Positions 672 through 21,189 of a stretch of DNA of 64,000 nt are shown in pieces (positions within the stretch are counted from its first letter, which is position 1; each line of letters opens with the position of its first letter). Source of the DNA: a virus; IMG/VR virus record IMGVR_UViG_3300025131_000013, positions 1 through 64,000 of that record; one strand, written 5' to 3'. A model generated the notes under the pieces. It saw only the letters and a program-made list of their open reading frames with translations. It did not search any database and was not told the DNA's origin. A program made the translations under genes and the position numbers.

Positions 672-2042
672 ATGCCTAGACTAGTAATAATTGGCGGGGG
701 AATCTCGGGTGCCTCTATGTTCTACCATATGAGGATTAATTATCCTGAATGGGAAGTAGTCCTCCTTGAGCGGGGAGACAAGGTAGGAGGGATCAATCGT
801 AGTATTGAAGTAGAAGGGCTGAGATTTAGCCTGGGCAGTCGCTACATCTTCGCTATCGACGAGTATACTAACGACCTAGTGAACGGCCTTGCAAACAATG
901 AATGCGTTCGCGGACAATCGAATCATTCCGTGTTCTATAAGAAGCGTTATATAGAGTTTCCTGTACAATTGAATACCTCAGGTCTTTCAATCAGAGAACG
1001 GGCAGAGTGTCTCTGGAAGCTATGGTGGAGAAAGAAGTGGGATAGCGAGACTATGTGGTCCTTTGAAGACTGGGCTATTTGCAACTTCGGAGAGGCTATT
1101 GCCCGCAAGTTCATCTTGAGTCACGTAACGAAATGTTGGCGGACGGATCCAGGTGAGATTGACTATACCGGATCGGCCAAGAAGGTGATGGAACCAAGAG
1201 TAAGGGATATGGTCTGGGGAGCACTCAGGCGTCAGAAGTCTTTTAAGAATCAGGAGTTCCTGTATCCCAAAGGTGGGATTGGGACTATTGTGGATGAGAT
1301 GATAGAGCGCGGTCAATGTATTGACGACAATAAGGGATATGGCTCAGTCAGCACTAAGTTTATGGTTCACTCGGTAGATATGAGTGAGAGACTGGTTGCC
1401 TCTGAGGACGGGCAAGAGGTTCCGTATGACGCCATAGTTTCGACTATCCCGATGCCTGGGCTAGTAAACTTGATCGACAACTCCAATATTGGAGTCCCGC
1501 AATCAGTCATCCTTGCCGGGGACAAACTTAGATACAATTGTATGGCCTCGGTGATGCTGGTATTTGAAGGAGATATATTAGATGGGCGCCAAGAGCATTT
1601 CATTTACGTTCCTGGAAAAGAGTATTGGTTCTCCAGAGTTTCAATTCCGAGAAACTTTGATCCTACTTCCTGCCCAGAAGGGTATACCTCCCTCCTGGTT
1701 GAAATATGTTACAATAGGGAGCAGAAAGGATTGCTCTTTAGAAAAGACTACCAAACGGAGTTGGCTACGAAGGTGGCTAAAGAAGTAAATGATCTGTTCC
1801 CGAAGCTCGACCTGACTGCTAGGCTTAAGGGCTTTGCAGTAGGGGTTATTGACCCGGCCTATATCATAACGGATGAGAACTATAAGGAGTCCAGAGCGGA
1901 TTGTTTACGGTATCTAGCTCAGAACGACATCCATATGCTTGGCCGCTTTGGGAAGTGGGACTGGAGTAGGATTGAAGACACTATCCCTGAGTCGAGGGAT
2001 CTATCTCATCAAATCGGTGGGAGGCTGTGGCTAAATGAGTAA
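672..2042 (+). CDS. FAD-dependent UDP-galactopyranose mutase-like oxidoreductase
   Basis: A 456-residue flavoprotein. The N-terminus has the Rossmann dinucleotide motif IIGGGISGAS (residues 6-15, GxGxxG) and an acidic residue after the second strand (LLERGDKVGG), typical of FAD binding. FLYPKGGIGT near residue 200 is characteristic of the UDP-galactopyranose mutase / protoporphyrinogen-oxidase-like amine oxidase superfamily. Enzymes of the mutase branch interconvert pyranose and furanose nucleotide sugars, which would suit the glycosyltransferase that overlaps its 3' end by 8 nt. The assignment to mutase rather than another amine-oxidase-like flavoenzyme is inference, because substrate-binding residues cannot be judged by eye. 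Length is in the family range, slightly longer than a typical bacterial mutase. Confidence 0.75.
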   Translation: MPRLVIIGGGISGASMFYHMRINYPEWEVVLLERGDKVGGINRSIEVEGLRFSLGSRYIFAIDEYTNDLVNGLANNECVRGQSNHSVFYKKRYIEFPVQLNTSGLSIRERAECLWKLWWRKKWDSETMWSFEDWAICNFGEAIARKFILSHVTKCWRTDPGEIDYTGSAKKVMEPRVRDMVWGALRRQKSFKNQEFLYPKGGIGTIVDEMIERGQCIDDNKGYGSVSTKFMVHSVDMSERLVASEDGQEVPYDAIVSTIPMPGLVNLIDNSNIGVPQSVILAGDKLRYNCMASVMLVFEGDILDGRQEHFIYVPGKEYWFSRVSIPRNFDPTSCPEGYTSLLVEICYNREQKGLLFRKDYQTELATKVAKEVNDLFPKLDLTARLKGFAVGVIDPAYIITDENYKESRADCLRYLAQNDIHMLGRFGKWDWSRIEDTIPESRDLSHQIGGRLWLNE

Positions 2043-2943
2043 GAGACTCCTGTATGTTGAGCGGGCTAAGAAGAATCTGAATGCCACACATCGCCTCAAA
2101 GGGTTTATCCAAGCAGGATGGGAACCCTATCTGATCGATATTGCGAATGTGCGTCCCGATATAATAATGAAGCAAGCCAAGATGTTAGACCCTCACGCCG
2201 TCTTTATATCGGTGGCCGCTTCCTCTTGTCTTGAGGAACTGGAAGCCTTGCTTCCAAAGGCGTATATCTTCCTGTTCTTGGGAGATATATATGGTCCTTC
2301 GTTCAGGTATGTTGCGTCTTTGGTCCCTCATTTTGATTGTCTGCTGGTAAGTAACAATGATACCAGAATTCACAATTACTTCTTGAGTCGAGGGGTGAAG
2401 AGGGTTGAGGAGCATCAATGTGCTACAGATACTATTCATTATAAGGACAATGGGACCGAGCCAGACAAGGATCTCGTTTTTGCCGGGAATGTAGTCAGGA
2501 GAACAAAGGACTATGCCTTCAGGCGAGAGATGGTTACAGAGTTGGTTGATAAGGGGGTCTTGGGTGCTTTCGGTGCAGGATGGAATGAGAGAGCCAGACC
2601 TTGTAGCCTACTTCAATACCCGAAGATGATGACCCGAGGCAAGATCCAGTTGGTGATTAACGGGTTTGGATTCCTGAGGAATTGTTACTCAAATAGAACT
2701 TGGAACGCCTTAGCTATGGGCCGGCCAGTCCTTCACTATAGGACGAGGAACGCTGAGAGGTATTTCCGCGATGGATTTGACTTAGCTTTCTTCTCAAGCC
2801 GGGACGAGCTGTATTTGAAGATGAGGTGGCTCTTGGATAATCCGGATGAGGCTAAGGCCATAGGGCAAAGGGGGCGTAGGTTGGTAGAGAAGTGGCATAC
2901 CTACAAGAACCGGGGCGAGGAACTGTTGGAGCTATTAGGATGA
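2035..2943 (+). CDS. CgeB-like glycosyltransferase (group 1 type)
   Basis: A 302-residue soluble protein with the organisation of CgeB-like / DUF3880-type glycosyltransferases: an N-terminal Rossmann-like half with a CLLVSNNDTRIH segment and a C-terminal nucleotide-sugar half. Motifs shared with the gene at 36113-37126 show the two are paralogues: EHQCATD here versus EHHCATD there, and NRTWNALAMGRPVL versus NRVWNALACERLVL, followed by a terminal helix with RGRRLVEKWHTY. It presumably transfers a sugar from a nucleotide donor; donor and acceptor are unknown. The start overlaps the flavoprotein stop, so the two are translationally coupled and probably act in one glycan pathway. Confidence 0.8.
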   Translation: MSKRLLYVERAKKNLNATHRLKGFIQAGWEPYLIDIANVRPDIIMKQAKMLDPHAVFISVAASSCLEELEALLPKAYIFLFLGDIYGPSFRYVASLVPHFDCLLVSNNDTRIHNYFLSRGVKRVEEHQCATDTIHYKDNGTEPDKDLVFAGNVVRRTKDYAFRREMVTELVDKGVLGAFGAGWNERARPCSLLQYPKMMTRGKIQLVINGFGFLRNCYSNRTWNALAMGRPVLHYRTRNAERYFRDGFDLAFFSSRDELYLKMRWLLDNPDEAKAIGQRGRRLVEKWHTYKNRGEELLELLG

Positions 2944-2944
2944 A

Positions 2945-3046
2945 ATGCTATTTGGACTCAAGAAGTTGGCCCCGTTTTCAAGTTACCCTGACTTCATTCC
3001 GAGAGAGGCTTTTGAGATACAACAAGTGATAGGATGGATTATCTAA
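2945..3046 (+). CDS. Possible 33-residue small protein
   Basis: A short ATG-initiated frame begins 2 nt after the glycosyltransferase stop and encodes a plausible peptide starting MLFGLKKLAPF. A weak purine stretch (GGATGA) lies just upstream. A competing 29-codon frame begins at 2940 and overlaps the previous stop as ATGA, so which of the two, if either, is translated is unclear. No family is recognised. Confidence 0.3.
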   Translation: MLFGLKKLAPFSSYPDFIPREAFEIQQVIGWII

Positions 3047-3129
3047 GGGAGGATTTCAAAAAGAAGGTTTCCCAGCAGTGTCGAGTGAAGGCGTTTACTG
3101 AATTTTTTTTTAGAGAGTGGAGGAAAGCA

Positions 3130-3948
3130 ATGGCTGGTGAATCAATAGGACTCACAGCATCATCTTCAGAGCAGTCAACGGTTCCGATAACAAACTCACC
3201 GATAGTGAAGCTGGTGTCTCCGCCAGATTCCTTCGATTGTCTTACTCAGATCTCGACGATGTGGTTGGCGGCCCATCATGTCGATCCGATTGCGATCCAA
3301 AAGACGCTGACTATCGAACAGATGCGGTCTATGATTTGGGACGAGGTGATCCCGATTCCTGCTTGGCAGACGGTGTTGGAGTGTGTTCGGTTTACGTTTG
3401 TGATCCACAATATGAGCCGACCGGCGCAGCAGCAGTTGACCCGACAGAGGCTTGGAGTTGGCTTCAATAACAACTCCCTTCGGATCATCAAGCTTGAGAC
3501 GTTCGCGGACGATGACCGGTATCGGACGCCTCCTGGTTTGAATGAGGAACAGCACAATTTATACCACAGCGCCATAGATCGGTCGCAAGAGGACTATGAG
3601 GAGCTTCTTAAGGCAGGTGTGAGTCAAGAATCAGCCCGAGGTGTCCTTCCTCAGAATATCCACTCGCCTACGTTGACGATGTTCTCCGATCTGCGCGCCC
3701 TCCGAGGGTTCATCTCCAAGAGGCTTTGCTACGAGGCCCAGGATGAGATGAATGAATTTGCTGTATCCCTTAAGAGAGAAGTTGATGAGTGGGATCACTG
3801 GTTCGGTGGACTGCTTTCCTTCCCTTGCTCCCGAGATAAGGAGTGTGTGATTGGTCCAGGTGCCGCTGAACGTTGCCCGCTTCCGTATGAGTGGAAGGGT
3901 GGTGCCAATAAGGGTGTTGTTATTACTTCCCATAAGGAGATCAGGTGA
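3130..3948 (+). CDS. thyX: Divergent flavin-dependent thymidylate synthase
   Basis: ThyX methylates dUMP to dTMP using FAD, NADPH and methylene-tetrahydrofolate. The start at 3130 is chosen because GGAGGAAAG sits just upstream; an in-frame ATG at 3034 has no comparable site. From this start the protein has 272 residues. The substrate-binding region reads SRPAQQQLTRQRLGVGF then NNNSLR: Arg105-Gln106-Arg107 with Ser116. The family motif is RHR-x7-S, so His is replaced by Gln and there is one extra residue before Ser. The downstream segment (YEELLKAGVSQESARGVLP, then RALRGFISKRLCYEAQDEM) matches the family closely. A Cys-containing C-terminal extension (SFPCSRDKECVIG) is unusual. Nucleotide metabolism is its likely role; activity with the altered motif is untested. 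Confidence 0.85.
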   Translation: MAGESIGLTASSSEQSTVPITNSPIVKLVSPPDSFDCLTQISTMWLAAHHVDPIAIQKTLTIEQMRSMIWDEVIPIPAWQTVLECVRFTFVIHNMSRPAQQQLTRQRLGVGFNNNSLRIIKLETFADDDRYRTPPGLNEEQHNLYHSAIDRSQEDYEELLKAGVSQESARGVLPQNIHSPTLTMFSDLRALRGFISKRLCYEAQDEMNEFAVSLKREVDEWDHWFGGLLSFPCSRDKECVIGPGAAERCPLPYEWKGGANKGVVITSHKEIR

Positions 3949-18135: not shown

Positions 18136-18199
18136 ATCCTCTCATTATCAATCTAGCTCCCCGCTGAATCCTCTCATTATCAATCTAGCTCCCCGCTGA
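18126..18199. repeat. 32-bp tandem direct repeat, 2.3 copies
   Basis: The unit begins TCCCCGCTGAATCCTCTCAT and ends TATCAATCTAGC. Copies start at 18126, 18158 and (partial, 10 bp) 18190. The copies are identical and contiguous, so this is not a CRISPR array. Function unknown. Confidence 0.85.
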
Positions 18200-18360
18200 T
18201 GTGAGACACCGCTCGACTTCCCTCCTGGCACTCAGTCACACACCCACACTGGGTTGATTGGATGATTGGCACGATGCCCAGCTGGCTGTGTTTTCAGTCA
18301 ACCGGCAGTAATCACAATTGACGTGCCTTATCAGCACCAAACCGCACCAAACAGGACTGG

Positions 18361-18454
18361 CCATTCAGTCAACCAGGCAAGTTTGGGTTGCTGAATGGTG
18401 AATTTAACCATCCAGTCAACCATGCAAGTCTGGGTTGTTGAATGTTGAATGGTG
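18361..18454. repeat. Two 47-bp hairpin-forming direct repeats
   Basis: Copies start at 18361 and 18408. Each contains CCAKYCAGTCAACC, CAAGTYTGGGTTG and TGAATG. In copy 1 CCATTCAGTCAACC can pair with GGGTTGCTGAATGG with a single bulge, giving a hairpin of about 13 bp. The copies differ at several bases that largely preserve the pairing. Confidence 0.6.
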
Positions 18455-18491
18455 GATGCTGCTGGTTGTTGGTTGGGTCCGGCCCGGATGT

Positions 18492-18532: not shown

Positions 18533-18862
18533 CTAGTTCTGCTTCTTCTCCCGTGGCTTACCGGGAGCTACCGCCACATAGTTCCCGTTCTCCAATCGGG
18601 TAACTACCACCCGCCTCTTCGCACGGACGACGAAATTGGCGTAGAATAGCGGGTTGGCGATACCCGCCTCGGTCAGCTTTTCGAGCCAATCGACCTTACT
18701 GATTCCCGTTTTTCCCGCGTCCTGGAGAATCTGCCAGGCTCGGTTGCGACCCTCGCTGCGCTTAAACGGTGATCGCGCGTTGTGGTACGGGAGTGCGGAA
18801 CTGCCGAGACTCTCAGCGAGACTCGGAACGACCTGCGGCTGCTTCTTACTCTGGGTGCCCAT
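18533..18862 (-). CDS. Small domain protein without acidic arm (paralogue 3 of 3)
   Basis: The leftward start at 18862 follows TGAGGAGTCCGAT. The 109-residue product contains NARSPFKRSEGRNRAWQILQ, DAGKTGISKVDWLEKL and KRRVVVTRLENGNYVAVAPG, matching the C-terminal domain of the genes at 3-584 and 5986-6564. The long Asp/Glu arm is missing and the tail is basic. It has its own leftward copy of the conserved promoter motif. It is a separate transcription unit against the direction of its neighbours, so its regulation probably differs. No known family is recognised. Confidence 0.8.
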   Translation of the reverse strand: MGTQSKKQPQVVPSLAESLGSSALPYHNARSPFKRSEGRNRAWQILQDAGKTGISKVDWLEKLTEAGIANPLFYANFVVRAKRRVVVTRLENGNYVAVAPGKPREKKQN

Positions 18863-18895
18863 ATCGGACTCCTCATTTTTAGGTCTGAGGCCTAT

Positions 18896-18938
18896 CCCCG
18901 ACCTGCATTTAATATAACGGATTCGCACTGAGATTCCT
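18896..18938 (-). promoter_or_regulatory. Promoter-like motif, leftward copy P9
   Basis: Read on the minus strand: AGGAATCTCAGTGCG, then AATCCGTTATATTAAATGC and AGGTCGGGG. It keeps the AGGA block, CAG, the CGTTA step and an AT-rich core (TATATT). It sits about 35-75 nt upstream of the leftward start at 18862. Confidence 0.5.
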
Positions 18939-19180
18939 AATGAAATCTTCGCTTTCAGCGAAAAAAGTTTCGCTGGATGATGCCCGATATATCAGAGATT
19001 TCAGTCAACGGGTGGCGTGGGCTGTGGTGTGCGGTGTTGTTGTATAGGGATTTCAGTCAACGCCGGGCGCTGATGTTGCGCGCGGTGTTGTATAGGCATC
19101 AAGCTGCACCAACGCGCCCCGGACATATGCTTGATGGTGGCTGATGGTGGCTGGTGGAAAAAAAAAGTTTCTGTTGGGCT
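18939..19180. other. Intergenic region with CAGTCAAC motifs
   Basis: No gene seen. It contains two GATTTCAGTCAACG copies (motif at 19002 and 19054), a TTTCGCTGGATGATG stretch, TGGTGGCTGATGGTGGCTGG reiteration and an A9 run at 19158-19166, ending at promoter copy P8. Confidence 0.5.
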
Positions 19181-19223
19181 AGGATTCCAGTTGTCGATTC
19201 GCTATCTTTAAATAGGTAGAGAA
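19181..19223 (+). promoter_or_regulatory. Promoter-like motif, copy P8
   Basis: AGGATTCCAGTTGTC is followed by GATTCGCTATCTTTAAATAG and GTAGAGAATC. It precedes the small gene at 19252. Confidence 0.65.
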
Positions 19224-19251
19224 TCCGCTCTACCTAAACGAAGGGAACGAG

Positions 19252-19458
19252 ATGGATATCCCTATTCTTAGGGGGATCGTAAAGTCCAGCGTATTAGAGC
19301 TAGACGGTTGCGTTAACGAATACGGAGTAGAGGTTGATGTATGCTCCGGAGGCGGCCCCAACGCGGGAGGCGTTACGATCCAGCTTCGGATTCCAGATCG
19401 AGACGAAATCTCGATTAGACTTCAGAACGACGGAATCTTCACGGTAGTCGAACTCTAA
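19252..19458 (+). CDS. Hypothetical beta-rich protein, 68 residues
   Basis: Behind copy P8 with GAAGGGAACGAG before ATG. Strand-rich (YGVEVDVCSGGGPNAGGVTI, EISIRLQNDGIFTVVEL), similar in style to the beta domain of the genes at 16684 and 19506. TG and CA dinucleotides are already sparser here than in neighbouring genes. Function unknown. Confidence 0.6.
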   Translation: MDIPILRGIVKSSVLELDGCVNEYGVEVDVCSGGGPNAGGVTIQLRIPDRDEISIRLQNDGIFTVVEL

Positions 19459-19465
19459 CCTCAAC

Positions 19466-19487
19466 GGGCGGGACTTCGGTCCCGCCC
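19466..19487 (+). terminator. Hairpin with TTCG tetraloop
   Basis: GGGCGGGAC-TTCG-GTCCCGCCC is a perfect 9-bp stem with the very stable UUCG tetraloop. It is intergenic, 7 nt after a stop, and followed by CAACG rather than T residues, so it may stabilise mRNA rather than terminate. Confidence 0.55.
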
Positions 19488-19505
19488 AACGAAAGCGAGG
19501 GCGAT

Positions 19506-19770: not shown

Positions 19771-19816
19771 AACGATCCGTTGACTGGGATATTACTTATT
19801 CAGTCAACGGATCGTT
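19771..19816. repeat. 16-bp perfect inverted repeat
   Basis: AACGATCCGTTGACTG (19771-19786) and CAGTCAACGGATCGTT (19801-19816) are exact reverse complements around an AT-rich 14-nt spacer; with one mismatch the pairing extends to about 20 bp. Both arms carry the CAGTCAAC motif found elsewhere in this intergenic zone. It may be a terminator without T-tract, an operator or part of an origin. Confidence 0.7.
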
Positions 19817-19860
19817 GTTCGAGCTGGTAGGTATTGCTGGCTGCTGCTGGTTGCTGGTTG

Positions 19861-19923
19861 GCTTTCAGCCAGTCAGTCAGCTTCCAGTCAGTCAGCCAGT
19901 CAGCTTTCAGTCAGTCAGTCAGA
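19861..19923. repeat. CAGTCAG-type microsatellite
   Basis: Reiterated CAGT/CAGTCAG units with occasional TTC and CC interruptions (for example AGCCAGTCAGTCAGCTTCC). It ends about 45 bp before the left inverted repeat of the TG/CA-free island. Confidence 0.75.
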
Positions 19924-19969
19924 AATCACAACCGGCATAGGGTAAGCACGTTAGAAAAACTAAGTCCTA

Positions 19970-19998
19970 CTACTTAGCCTTAAGCGATACTAAGTAGT
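19970..19998 (+). repeat. Left terminal inverted repeat
   Basis: CTACTTAGCCTTAAGCGATA followed by CTAAGTAGT. It matches the reverse complement of 21049-21077 at 28 of 29 bases. It is itself part of an 11-bp palindrome (CTACTACTTAG / CTAAGTAGTAG). Confidence 0.8.
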
Positions 19999-20267
19999 AG
20001 TGGGAAAAATCTACCGGAAGAAAATTCTTAAGAAAAAGATTAGTTTCGCTTAAGGGAAAAATCTTCCTCTACGAAAATTATAAGACGTTCTACTACTTTT
20101 CCGCTTAAAGCGAAATCTATACCTAAAAGCGAAAAAAAGGCGAAAAAAGACGAGAAAATTTTTTTTACGAAAAGCGAAAAAAAACGCTAGACTCGACTAG
20201 TTTAATACCCTATACTTAGACCTACGAACCCTAACGAAAGGAAACGAAGAAAAGAGTAAAAAGAGTA

Positions 20268-20389
20268 GACTCTAGGCGAAGCGGGAACTTAGGCTTTCGC
20301 CCTTACTACCTAGAGTCCTACCGCCGGATTATCGGGATAACCCTTAAATATCCGGCTTAAAAGGTTCCTAGCTTACCGTAAAAAGCTAG
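20268..20389 (+). promoter_or_regulatory. Structured leader of the island gene (three hairpins)
   Basis: Three successive stems lie in the untranslated leader: GACTCTAGG (20268) with CCTAGAGTC (20309), GCCGGAT (20323) with ATCCGGC (20350), and CTAGCTT (20368) with AAGCTAG (20383). All are perfect. They end 40 nt before the start codon, which has TTTAGGAG upstream. The leader may be a regulatory RNA. The 5' portion (20041-20210) is very A-rich with repeated GCGAAAA units. Confidence 0.5.
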
Positions 20390-20429
20390 ACTCGATTTAT
20401 TTTTTTTTACTTCTCTTTAGGAGAAAAAA

Positions 20430-20978
20430 ATGTCTCTCGATATTACCCCCGTAGAGGCCGCCGTAGAGGTCCCCGTAGTCGGAGACTCTAAGGACGCCGG
20501 GATATACGCCTATAACCTTTTCGAAGTCGCCCGGATCGCCGTAGCGCGGCGTCCTAAAGACGCGAAAAAGGTTAAGGTAGGAACCGAAGATCGAGGCGGT
20601 TATACTAGTCCCGATCGATACGCGTCCTTCCGGCTCGCGTTTTCCCTCTCTCTAACGAATTCCGAAGCTAAACGGGTAGCTATCGTAGCGCGCTTCTCCG
20701 AGACGTTAAAGATTCGGAAACGGATCGTAGACGCCGGAATTCCCGTAGGGAAGGGTTATACCTATAAGGAACTCGCGTCTACCGCCGCCGCTCTACGCTA
20801 CGGCGAAAAGTACTCCGGGTTCGTAGCGTTTCGACCTAACGGTACTCGATTCGCCGTAGCGGAAAAAAACGAGCGTTTCTTTCTTTACGTAGTAAACGCG
20901 AACGGAGAGGTTTTCCCTAACCTTCCCGAATCGCTTAAGGTTAAGGAGGTCGAGGGGGAGCTAATAAAGGTAGAGTAA
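20430..20978 (+). CDS. Island protein of 182 residues lacking C, H, Q, W and internal M
   Basis: ATG 20430 follows TTTAGGAGAAAAAAA. The product begins MSLDITPVEAAVEVPVVGD and is basic, soluble and alternating strand/helix (YAYNLFEVARIAVARRPKD, KGYTYKELASTAAALRYGEK, RFAVAEKNERFFLYVVNANG). It contains no Cys, His, Gln or Trp and only the initiator Met, exactly the residues whose codons contain TG or CA. Codon junctions also avoid T|G and C|A. Valine uses GTA, GTC and GTT, never GTG; Ala never GCA; Leu never CTG or TTG. No family is recognised and no catalytic motif is evident. The lack of Cys and His excludes zinc sites and His-based catalysis. Confidence 0.85.
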   Translation: MSLDITPVEAAVEVPVVGDSKDAGIYAYNLFEVARIAVARRPKDAKKVKVGTEDRGGYTSPDRYASFRLAFSLSLTNSEAKRVAIVARFSETLKIRKRIVDAGIPVGKGYTYKELASTAAALRYGEKYSGFVAFRPNGTRFAVAEKNERFFLYVVNANGEVFPNLPESLKVKEVEGELIKVE

Positions 20979-20989
20979 TAAATTCGACT

Positions 20990-21021
20990 CCCGGTCCTAA
21001 CGGACCGGGGGTTTTTTTTTT
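20990..21021 (+). terminator. Rho-independent terminator of the island gene
   Basis: CCCGGTCC (20990-20997), loop TAAC, GGACCGGG (21002-21009), then GG and a run of ten T (21012-21021). A textbook terminator, and itself free of TG and CA. Confidence 0.9.
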
Positions 21022-21048
21022 AGCCTATAGGGAAGTTCCTTCCCTTCG

Positions 21049-21077
21049 ACTACTTAGTATCGCTTAAGGTTAAGTAG
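21049..21077 (-). repeat. Right terminal inverted repeat
   Basis: ACTACTTAGTATCGCTTAAG followed by GTTAAGTAG, the reverse complement of 19970-19998 with one mismatch. The TG/CA-free tract ends 7 nt beyond it, at CA 21085. Confidence 0.8.
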
Positions 21078-21189
21078 AACTAAGCAGAACGGGGTAGGGG
21101 TTAAACGCTAATTTCTTAGCTTTTAACGTCTCAATTGGTCTGCTTACATACACGTGCAATTTTTTGGTGAAATTTGCTTCAGGAGGGTG

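Follow-up and report, generated by a model that had tools for sequence, protein, structure and literature searches.

Why does a viral protein of 182 residues contain no cysteine, histidine, glutamine or tryptophan, and no methionine after the first? The question is raised by ORF 20430-20978 in the DNA analysed here, called the window (64,000 nucleotides, positions 1 to 64,000 of the IMG/VR virus record IMGVR_UViG_3300025131_000013). A direct count over the 182 residues bears out the absence of Cys, His, Gln, Trp and internal Met claimed by a sequence-only reading. These five residues account on average for 9.9% of the products of plus-strand window ORFs of at least 180 aa; at this average, the chance of meeting none of them in 181 positions is about 6e-9. 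Among the 102 window ORFs of at least 100 aa, this is the only one that lacks all five. The constraint on synonymous choice was also described correctly (no GTG, GCA, ACA, TCA, CTG or TTG), and CCA is absent too. The start ATG carries the sole TG/CA of the ORF. Every codon junction therefore follows the rule, in agreement with the proposed avoidance of T|G and C|A junctions.

A TG/CA-free island around the ORF

The product, P0001, lacks the five amino acids because its ORF sits inside a TG/CA-poor stretch of 1,137 bp (19948-21084). The features of this island and of its immediate right flank are as follows.

19948..21084, no strand: TG/CA-free island, 1,137 bp, with two TG/CA sites, at 20001 and 20431
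19970..20007, plus strand: left arm of an inverted repeat near the island ends (38 nt, 87% complementary)
19978..19986, minus strand: copy 1 of the motif CGCTTAAGG; further exact copies on the plus strand at 20047, 20932 and 21061
20001..20002, plus strand: sole noncoding TG of the island, found in contigs L003 and L004 too
20247..20415, plus strand: predicted leader RNA of branched shape ahead of the ORF, from the fold of 20180-20430
20419..20423, plus strand: Shine-Dalgarno-like AGGAG, read in the sequence
20430..20978, plus strand: ORF (P0001), 182 aa, ATG start, without Cys, His, Gln, Trp or internal Met
20986..21021, plus strand: intrinsic terminator, without TG/CA
21040..21077, minus strand: right arm of the inverted repeat (38 nt, 87% complementary)
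21145..21166, plus strand: right-flank motif TACATACACGNNNAATTTTTTG, common to the related phage L016, where it lies just outside the island

TG/CA occurs in the window at a background of 0.115-0.123 per base, and the next longest run without it outside the island is 61 bp. Under a geometric model, the 654-bp TG/CA-free run within the island has an expectation of about 1e-32. TG/CA is missing from both strands, whether the DNA codes for protein or not, and all TG contexts are gone rather than one particular trinucleotide. Leader, terminator and flanks also obey the rule, which shows that it acts on duplex DNA; since the island extends about 60 bp beyond the terminator, the rule does not concern only the messenger. 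Thus, the sequence-only reading was right about a TG/CA-avoiding ORF and captured part of a larger feature. It did not reveal that the rule is not about P0001: noncoding DNA and, as described below, unrelated genes of a distant phage are covered too, and TG/CA-rich noncoding blocks accompany the islands. There is no genome-wide underrepresentation, the observed/expected ratio of TG/CA being 0.96 in the window, 0.92 in L016 and 1.04 in the distant phage L054. The TG/CA-free phenomenon is real, extreme and recurrent. We found no description of a TG/CA-free phage island in the literature searched, and comparison of the DNA of the window and L016 islands with 50,697 phage records gave chance-level matches only.

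The predicted fold of 20180-20430 has an energy of -66.6 kcal/mol (z -3.12), reached by none of 200 shuffles; near the leader, 20227-20288 shows weak similarity to L016:3855-3911. No Rfam family matched at gathering scores, and a tRNA search of the window found none. The score of the window inverted repeat was reached in 0 of 500 order-1 simulations with the same dinucleotide make-up; the corresponding repeat at the L016 island ends is marginal (8 of 500). The island contains four exact CGCTTAAGG motifs, and a pattern scan found TACATACACGNNNAATTTTTTG only in the two phages concerned, the window phage and L016. Two observations speak against a transposable element: no transposase family was found with Pfam or PHROGs, and an island of the window type was met in one setting only, in two phage species, and not at unrelated sites. 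Elsewhere, neighbouring amine-oxidase-like, glycosyltransferase and ThyX genes lie at 672-3948 of the window, and a UDG-superfamily gene at about 82.6-83.2 kb of its record.

Two AlphaFold2 runs on P0001 gave mean pLDDT values of 40.6 and 57.9. Foldseek with the better model revealed no match at E<=0.001. The statement that no known fold is recognised therefore stands as far as sequence searches go, and is weakly tested by structure given the low pLDDT of the models. Apart from the L016 protein, no homologue of P0001 was found in the phage records or genome contigs searched, and a comparison with plasmids gave a single match, at E 0.6.

Conservation, recurrence and adjoining TG/CA-rich blocks

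Two further contigs represent the same phage (99.65% and 99.8% identity) and both retain the island, one of them with an extra, third TG. In contig L004, an in-frame 21-bp deletion near the end of the ORF makes the C-terminus 7 residues shorter; part of the P0001 tail thus seems dispensable. Compared with contig L015, 12 of 24 substitutions fall within the 1,284 bp of the island region, out of 21,816 bp, in about six clustered events; despite its maintenance, this region evolves rapidly between strains. The sole one in the ORF is synonymous, as read by hand.

The related phage L016, whose terminase is 82% identical, has an island of 1,596 bp with zero TG/CA sites. It encodes the only divergent P0001 homologue found (50.7% identity over 148 aa), which also lacks all five residues. 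Homologues rich in His, Gln, Cys or Trp were sought, and this sole divergent one shows the same absence. Over the 148 aligned codons, differences between the two genes number 59/46/94 at the three codon positions, which indicates a real protein under selection. About 45% of the nucleotides have changed (199 of 444 positions) and one third of the possible single-nucleotide variants would create TG or CA, so divergence without any TG/CA implies strong maintenance. The strong and long-lasting constraint proposed from the sequence is thereby supported. ATG, GTG, TTG and CTG are all barred in the L016 island and the ORF must start otherwise; the likely start is ATT at L016:4056, 7 bases after AAGGGG, so that this phage seems to have given up ATG for ATT.

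The search for further islands covered 71 further loci of terminase relatives (1,080,865 bp), 60 regions of larger contigs that overlap some of these loci (1,112,057 bp), contig G003 and part of G004. Two regions stand out.

L054:974-2299: third TG/CA-poor island, 1,326 bp, 11 TG/CA sites
L135:14151-16380: restricted-vocabulary region of contig G009, 2.2 kb, with a word set other than TG/CA

L054 is a distant phage (terminase 33% identical). Six of its 11 sites lie in three identical TTGACA...TATAAT promoters, where the -35 boxes (TTGACA) hold them, three are ATG starts and two are inside the last ORF. Its island ORFs of 50, 120 and 138 aa all lack the five residues. CG is strongly depleted genome-wide in this phage (0.25) and is not depleted in the island. 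The G009 region, which belongs to a fourth phage, includes two promoter-gene cassettes, with two ORFs that have a similar TTGACA promoter and leader. Relative to the genome rate, ATG/CAT, CCA/TGG and ACA/TGT are at 0.08, GAG/CTC at 0.14, CAC/GTG at 0.16 and CAG/CTG at 0.19, and 63 of the 92 CA steps are TCAA or GCAA; the avoided set is not a simple dinucleotide. Comparison of P0001 with the island proteins of L054 and G009 revealed no homology.

Other candidates were set aside. The low-TG/CA window of L029 reflects Glu/Asp repeats, those of L056 and L050 look intergenic, and dinucleotide skews in G011 and G004 are due to charged-residue repeats. Weaker runs lack other dinucleotides (TA in L139, a Glu/Asp repeat; AA in L151; CG in CG-poor genomes), and none is comparable to the TG/CA islands except L033. 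This phage contig (L033:1-5092, 5,092 bp) has 521 C, 1,077 G and zero CG. At G007:82300-84100 (L123), we observed a GC-rich, noncoding-looking segment of very restricted vocabulary (GGCGCC, CTCGAG and GGCCGG words). In the window itself, a small ORF region at 19199-19499 has 13 TG/CA per 300 bp compared with a mean of 36, the lowest of any 300 bp outside the island; it resembles an island that is weaker or in decay.

Upstream of the window island, the composition is reversed in three blocks.

18190..18480, no strand: noncoding block rich in TG/CA, the island's mirror image (TG 1.81, CA 1.83, CG 0.36, TA 0.18)
18990..19170, no strand: second TG/CA-rich noncoding block, with repeated CAGTCAAC
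19815..19946, no strand: third TG/CA-rich block, abutting the island, with CAGTCAG repeats

All lie within 2 kb upstream of the island and are poor in CG and TA. Between 19801 and 19946 fall five of the 24 between-strain substitutions. A small gene between TG/CA-rich blocks is oppositely oriented in the two phages (window 18533-18928, minus strand; L016:1966-2320, plus strand; 74% DNA identity over 97 bp), which suggests a cassette inversion.

TG/CA was then counted per 300-bp window over 78 contigs (2,157,363 bp, several contigs incomplete). The three highest counts belong to the contigs of L016 (G004), the window (G000) and L054 (G003), precisely those with TG/CA-free islands. These rich windows start 1,801, 1,773 and 1,819 bp before the respective islands, and the longest open frame through them is no more than 74 aa. 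The naive chance that the island contigs are the top three is 1/76,076, a figure to be taken as a guide only, since two of the three contigs are related, their lengths differ and the test is post hoc after the first. No mirror-image rich block was found beside the G009 region, whose richest windows look coding.

What the avoidance could mean

Expected TA and CG counts were derived by maximum entropy from base composition and TG/CA absence, for seven TG/CA-free stretches of three phages. Pooled over these stretches, TA is not in excess (371 observed, 427 expected) and CG hardly so (325 observed, 307 expected). These counts point to selection rather than to a one-way mutator. The island pattern fits purifying selection against duplex TG = CA.

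Our best reading, to which we give a probability of about 0.3, is that the island, as an early anti-defence unit, has been cleared of a recognition signal two bases long, for instance a CRISPR PAM. A host agent otherwise able to attack any sequence would have to recognise TG before it can act; most likely TG would be a 2-nt PAM that a CRISPR-Cas system reads on either strand. The island would encode an early anti-defence product, and once this product is made, recognition sites elsewhere would be harmless. With a site inside the unit, the agent could act before the product is made, which could explain why the purge is confined to the island and why it extends to the margins past the terminator and to the ATG of L016. 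The TG/CA-rich noncoding block may serve as a decoy, in which the phage could escape hits or acquired spacers at low cost.

Several observations support evasion of recognition. The bar on TG/CA holds for both strands, for coding as well as noncoding DNA, and beyond terminators. The rule survives some 45% nucleotide change although a third of single-nucleotide variants break it, and the lack of a TA excess, with hardly any for CG, is what one would expect if TG/CA is lost through any mutation that happens to abolish it. In L054, 9 of the 11 remaining sites are in -35 boxes and ATG starts. A rule that is local and two-stranded, yields at ATG and -35 boxes and changes its word in G009 fits an agent with a very short signal; the different G009 word set is what would be expected if recognition signals vary between hosts. 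The three richest windows, found in the three island contigs 1,773-1,819 bp upstream, also count for evasion with a decoy. The L054 layout (three unrelated ORFs with their own strong promoters) resembles anti-defence islands. PAM depletion by selection has been documented genome-wide in phages (PMC4246573; PMC12174588). For Cas12c, a study reports a PAM as short as TN and silencing without cutting (PMC10523329), and plasmid anti-defence genes are described as clustered, early and promoter-rich (PMC11541004).

Other observations count against a PAM. TG/CA is kept in three L054 promoters, the worst place if binding at these sites silences the gene. The depletion published, in the sections considered here, is genome-wide underrepresentation rather than local absence. 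The G009 words are not a simple dinucleotide, and a PAM leaves the inverted repeats, the 1.8 kb spacing and the leader RNA without explanation. The undepleted rest of the phage (0.96) fits a PAM only if the island product works. As for anti-defence, Pfam and PHROGs gave no convincing family for the island proteins (PHROGs without two G009 proteins), and none matched above the curated cut-offs of Pfam, PHROGs or PADLOC. PADLOC, whose models describe defence rather than anti-defence, gave a weak HamA-like match (E 0.011) for one L054 ORF. A plasmid search found no near match to window 1-25000. Recognition evasion is the best of several readings, and beyond selection against duplex TG/CA we infer its every step.

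TG/CA could instead be read by another DNA-acting enzyme of two-base specificity, a nuclease, nickase or base-modifying enzyme of host or phage. The island would then have to stay uncut or unmodified, and the TG/CA-rich blocks would be preferred substrate. A strand-symmetric duplex rule with functional exceptions speaks for such an enzyme, as do adjacent rich and free blocks. We nevertheless regard it as rather unlikely, given that TG/CA is normal in the rest of the genome, that G009 avoids other words and that a Pfam scan of about 80 proteins of the phage record recognised no DNA-modification enzyme; glycosyltransferases, methyltransferase domains and ThyX are present.

Less probable still is a phage-internal DNA transaction, for example primase starts that need TG, dense in the rich block and lacking in the island, so that at an origin or packaging site the island would stay single-stranded or without primers. 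The phage has its own DnaG-like primase, the region lies upstream of the terminase gene (1.7 kb in the window, 5.1 kb in L016), CAGTCA words are repeated in the rich blocks and the window island has inverted-repeat ends. However, every TG context is lost and not one trinucleotide, L054 carries several promoter-gene cassettes instead, and it is hard to see why a coding unit should be left unprimed.

Known xenogeneic silencers show a preference for AT-rich DNA and for TA steps. That the island genes escape binding by a TG/CA-preferring host silencing protein, with the rich block as sponge or boundary, agrees with adjoining rich and free blocks and with the strong L054 promoters. It is a doubtful explanation, as TA is kept in the islands, against expectation for the known silencers. 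Avoidance at the RNA level, to protect the transcript from an RNase that cleaves at UG and CA, could accommodate the six L054 -35 sites, which are upstream of presumed transcription starts. We find it highly improbable, as it requires two unrelated dinucleotides on one strand and the rule reaches about 60 and 100 bp past terminators and hundreds of bp upstream of the ORF.

Finally, we give hardly any credence to mutation pressure by a RIP-like or deaminase mutator with TG/CA context that has exhausted its local targets: near-total local TG/CA loss with sharp edges and the clustering of strain differences (12 of 24 substitutions in 1,284 of 21,816 bp) would suit it, but C-to-T or A-to-G change at CA needs an excess of TA or CG, of which there is none for TA and hardly any for CG, TG/CA persists in L054 promoters and start codons, the L016 ATG was seemingly exchanged for ATT, and a RIP-like target in particular was rejected for want of a TA excess and because the ORF is intact and conserved (59/46/94).

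Significance and comparison with known systems

A near-absolute local dinucleotide ban that reshapes proteins and apparently displaces ATG may be a direct record of an unseen selective agent. As the avoided word is not the same in all these phages, islands of this kind might be used to deduce which motifs unknown defences recognise. Their genes would be prime candidates for counter-defence or for other functions that must never be intercepted. We propose tentatively that they form two-part stealth regions, a unit in which a host recognition dinucleotide is erased from both strands, even from the start codon and at the expense of five amino acids, together with a noncoding decoy packed with it; the word varies between phages and would reveal the motif of a host defence as yet unassigned.

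Comparison with known systems helps to place the islands. In fungal repeat-induced point mutation (RIP), a limited region loses CA and TG from both strands and is left with a TA excess and broken ORFs. The phage island shares the local CA/TG loss, whereas its TA is not in excess and its ORF is intact and conserved. In restriction-site avoidance, phages purge the words of host enzymes; the sites are 4-8 bp and the avoidance is genome-wide. The island is also purged of words, but these are two bases long and the purge is local. Plasmid leading-region anti-defence islands resemble L054 and G009 in their small unknown ORFs clustered with their own strong promoters; the relevant part of that account (PMC11541004) contains no dinucleotide exclusion, which distinguishes them from the phage islands, whose anti-defence role we infer. 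The islands also resemble PAM-depleted phages (Streptococcus I-C, Vibrio I-E, P. aeruginosa I-F; PMC4246573, PMC12174588), from which selection has removed a short strand-independent motif. The depletion reported for these phages is genome-wide underrepresentation, whereas the islands combine near-total local absence with a normal rest of the genome and an adjacent motif-rich block.
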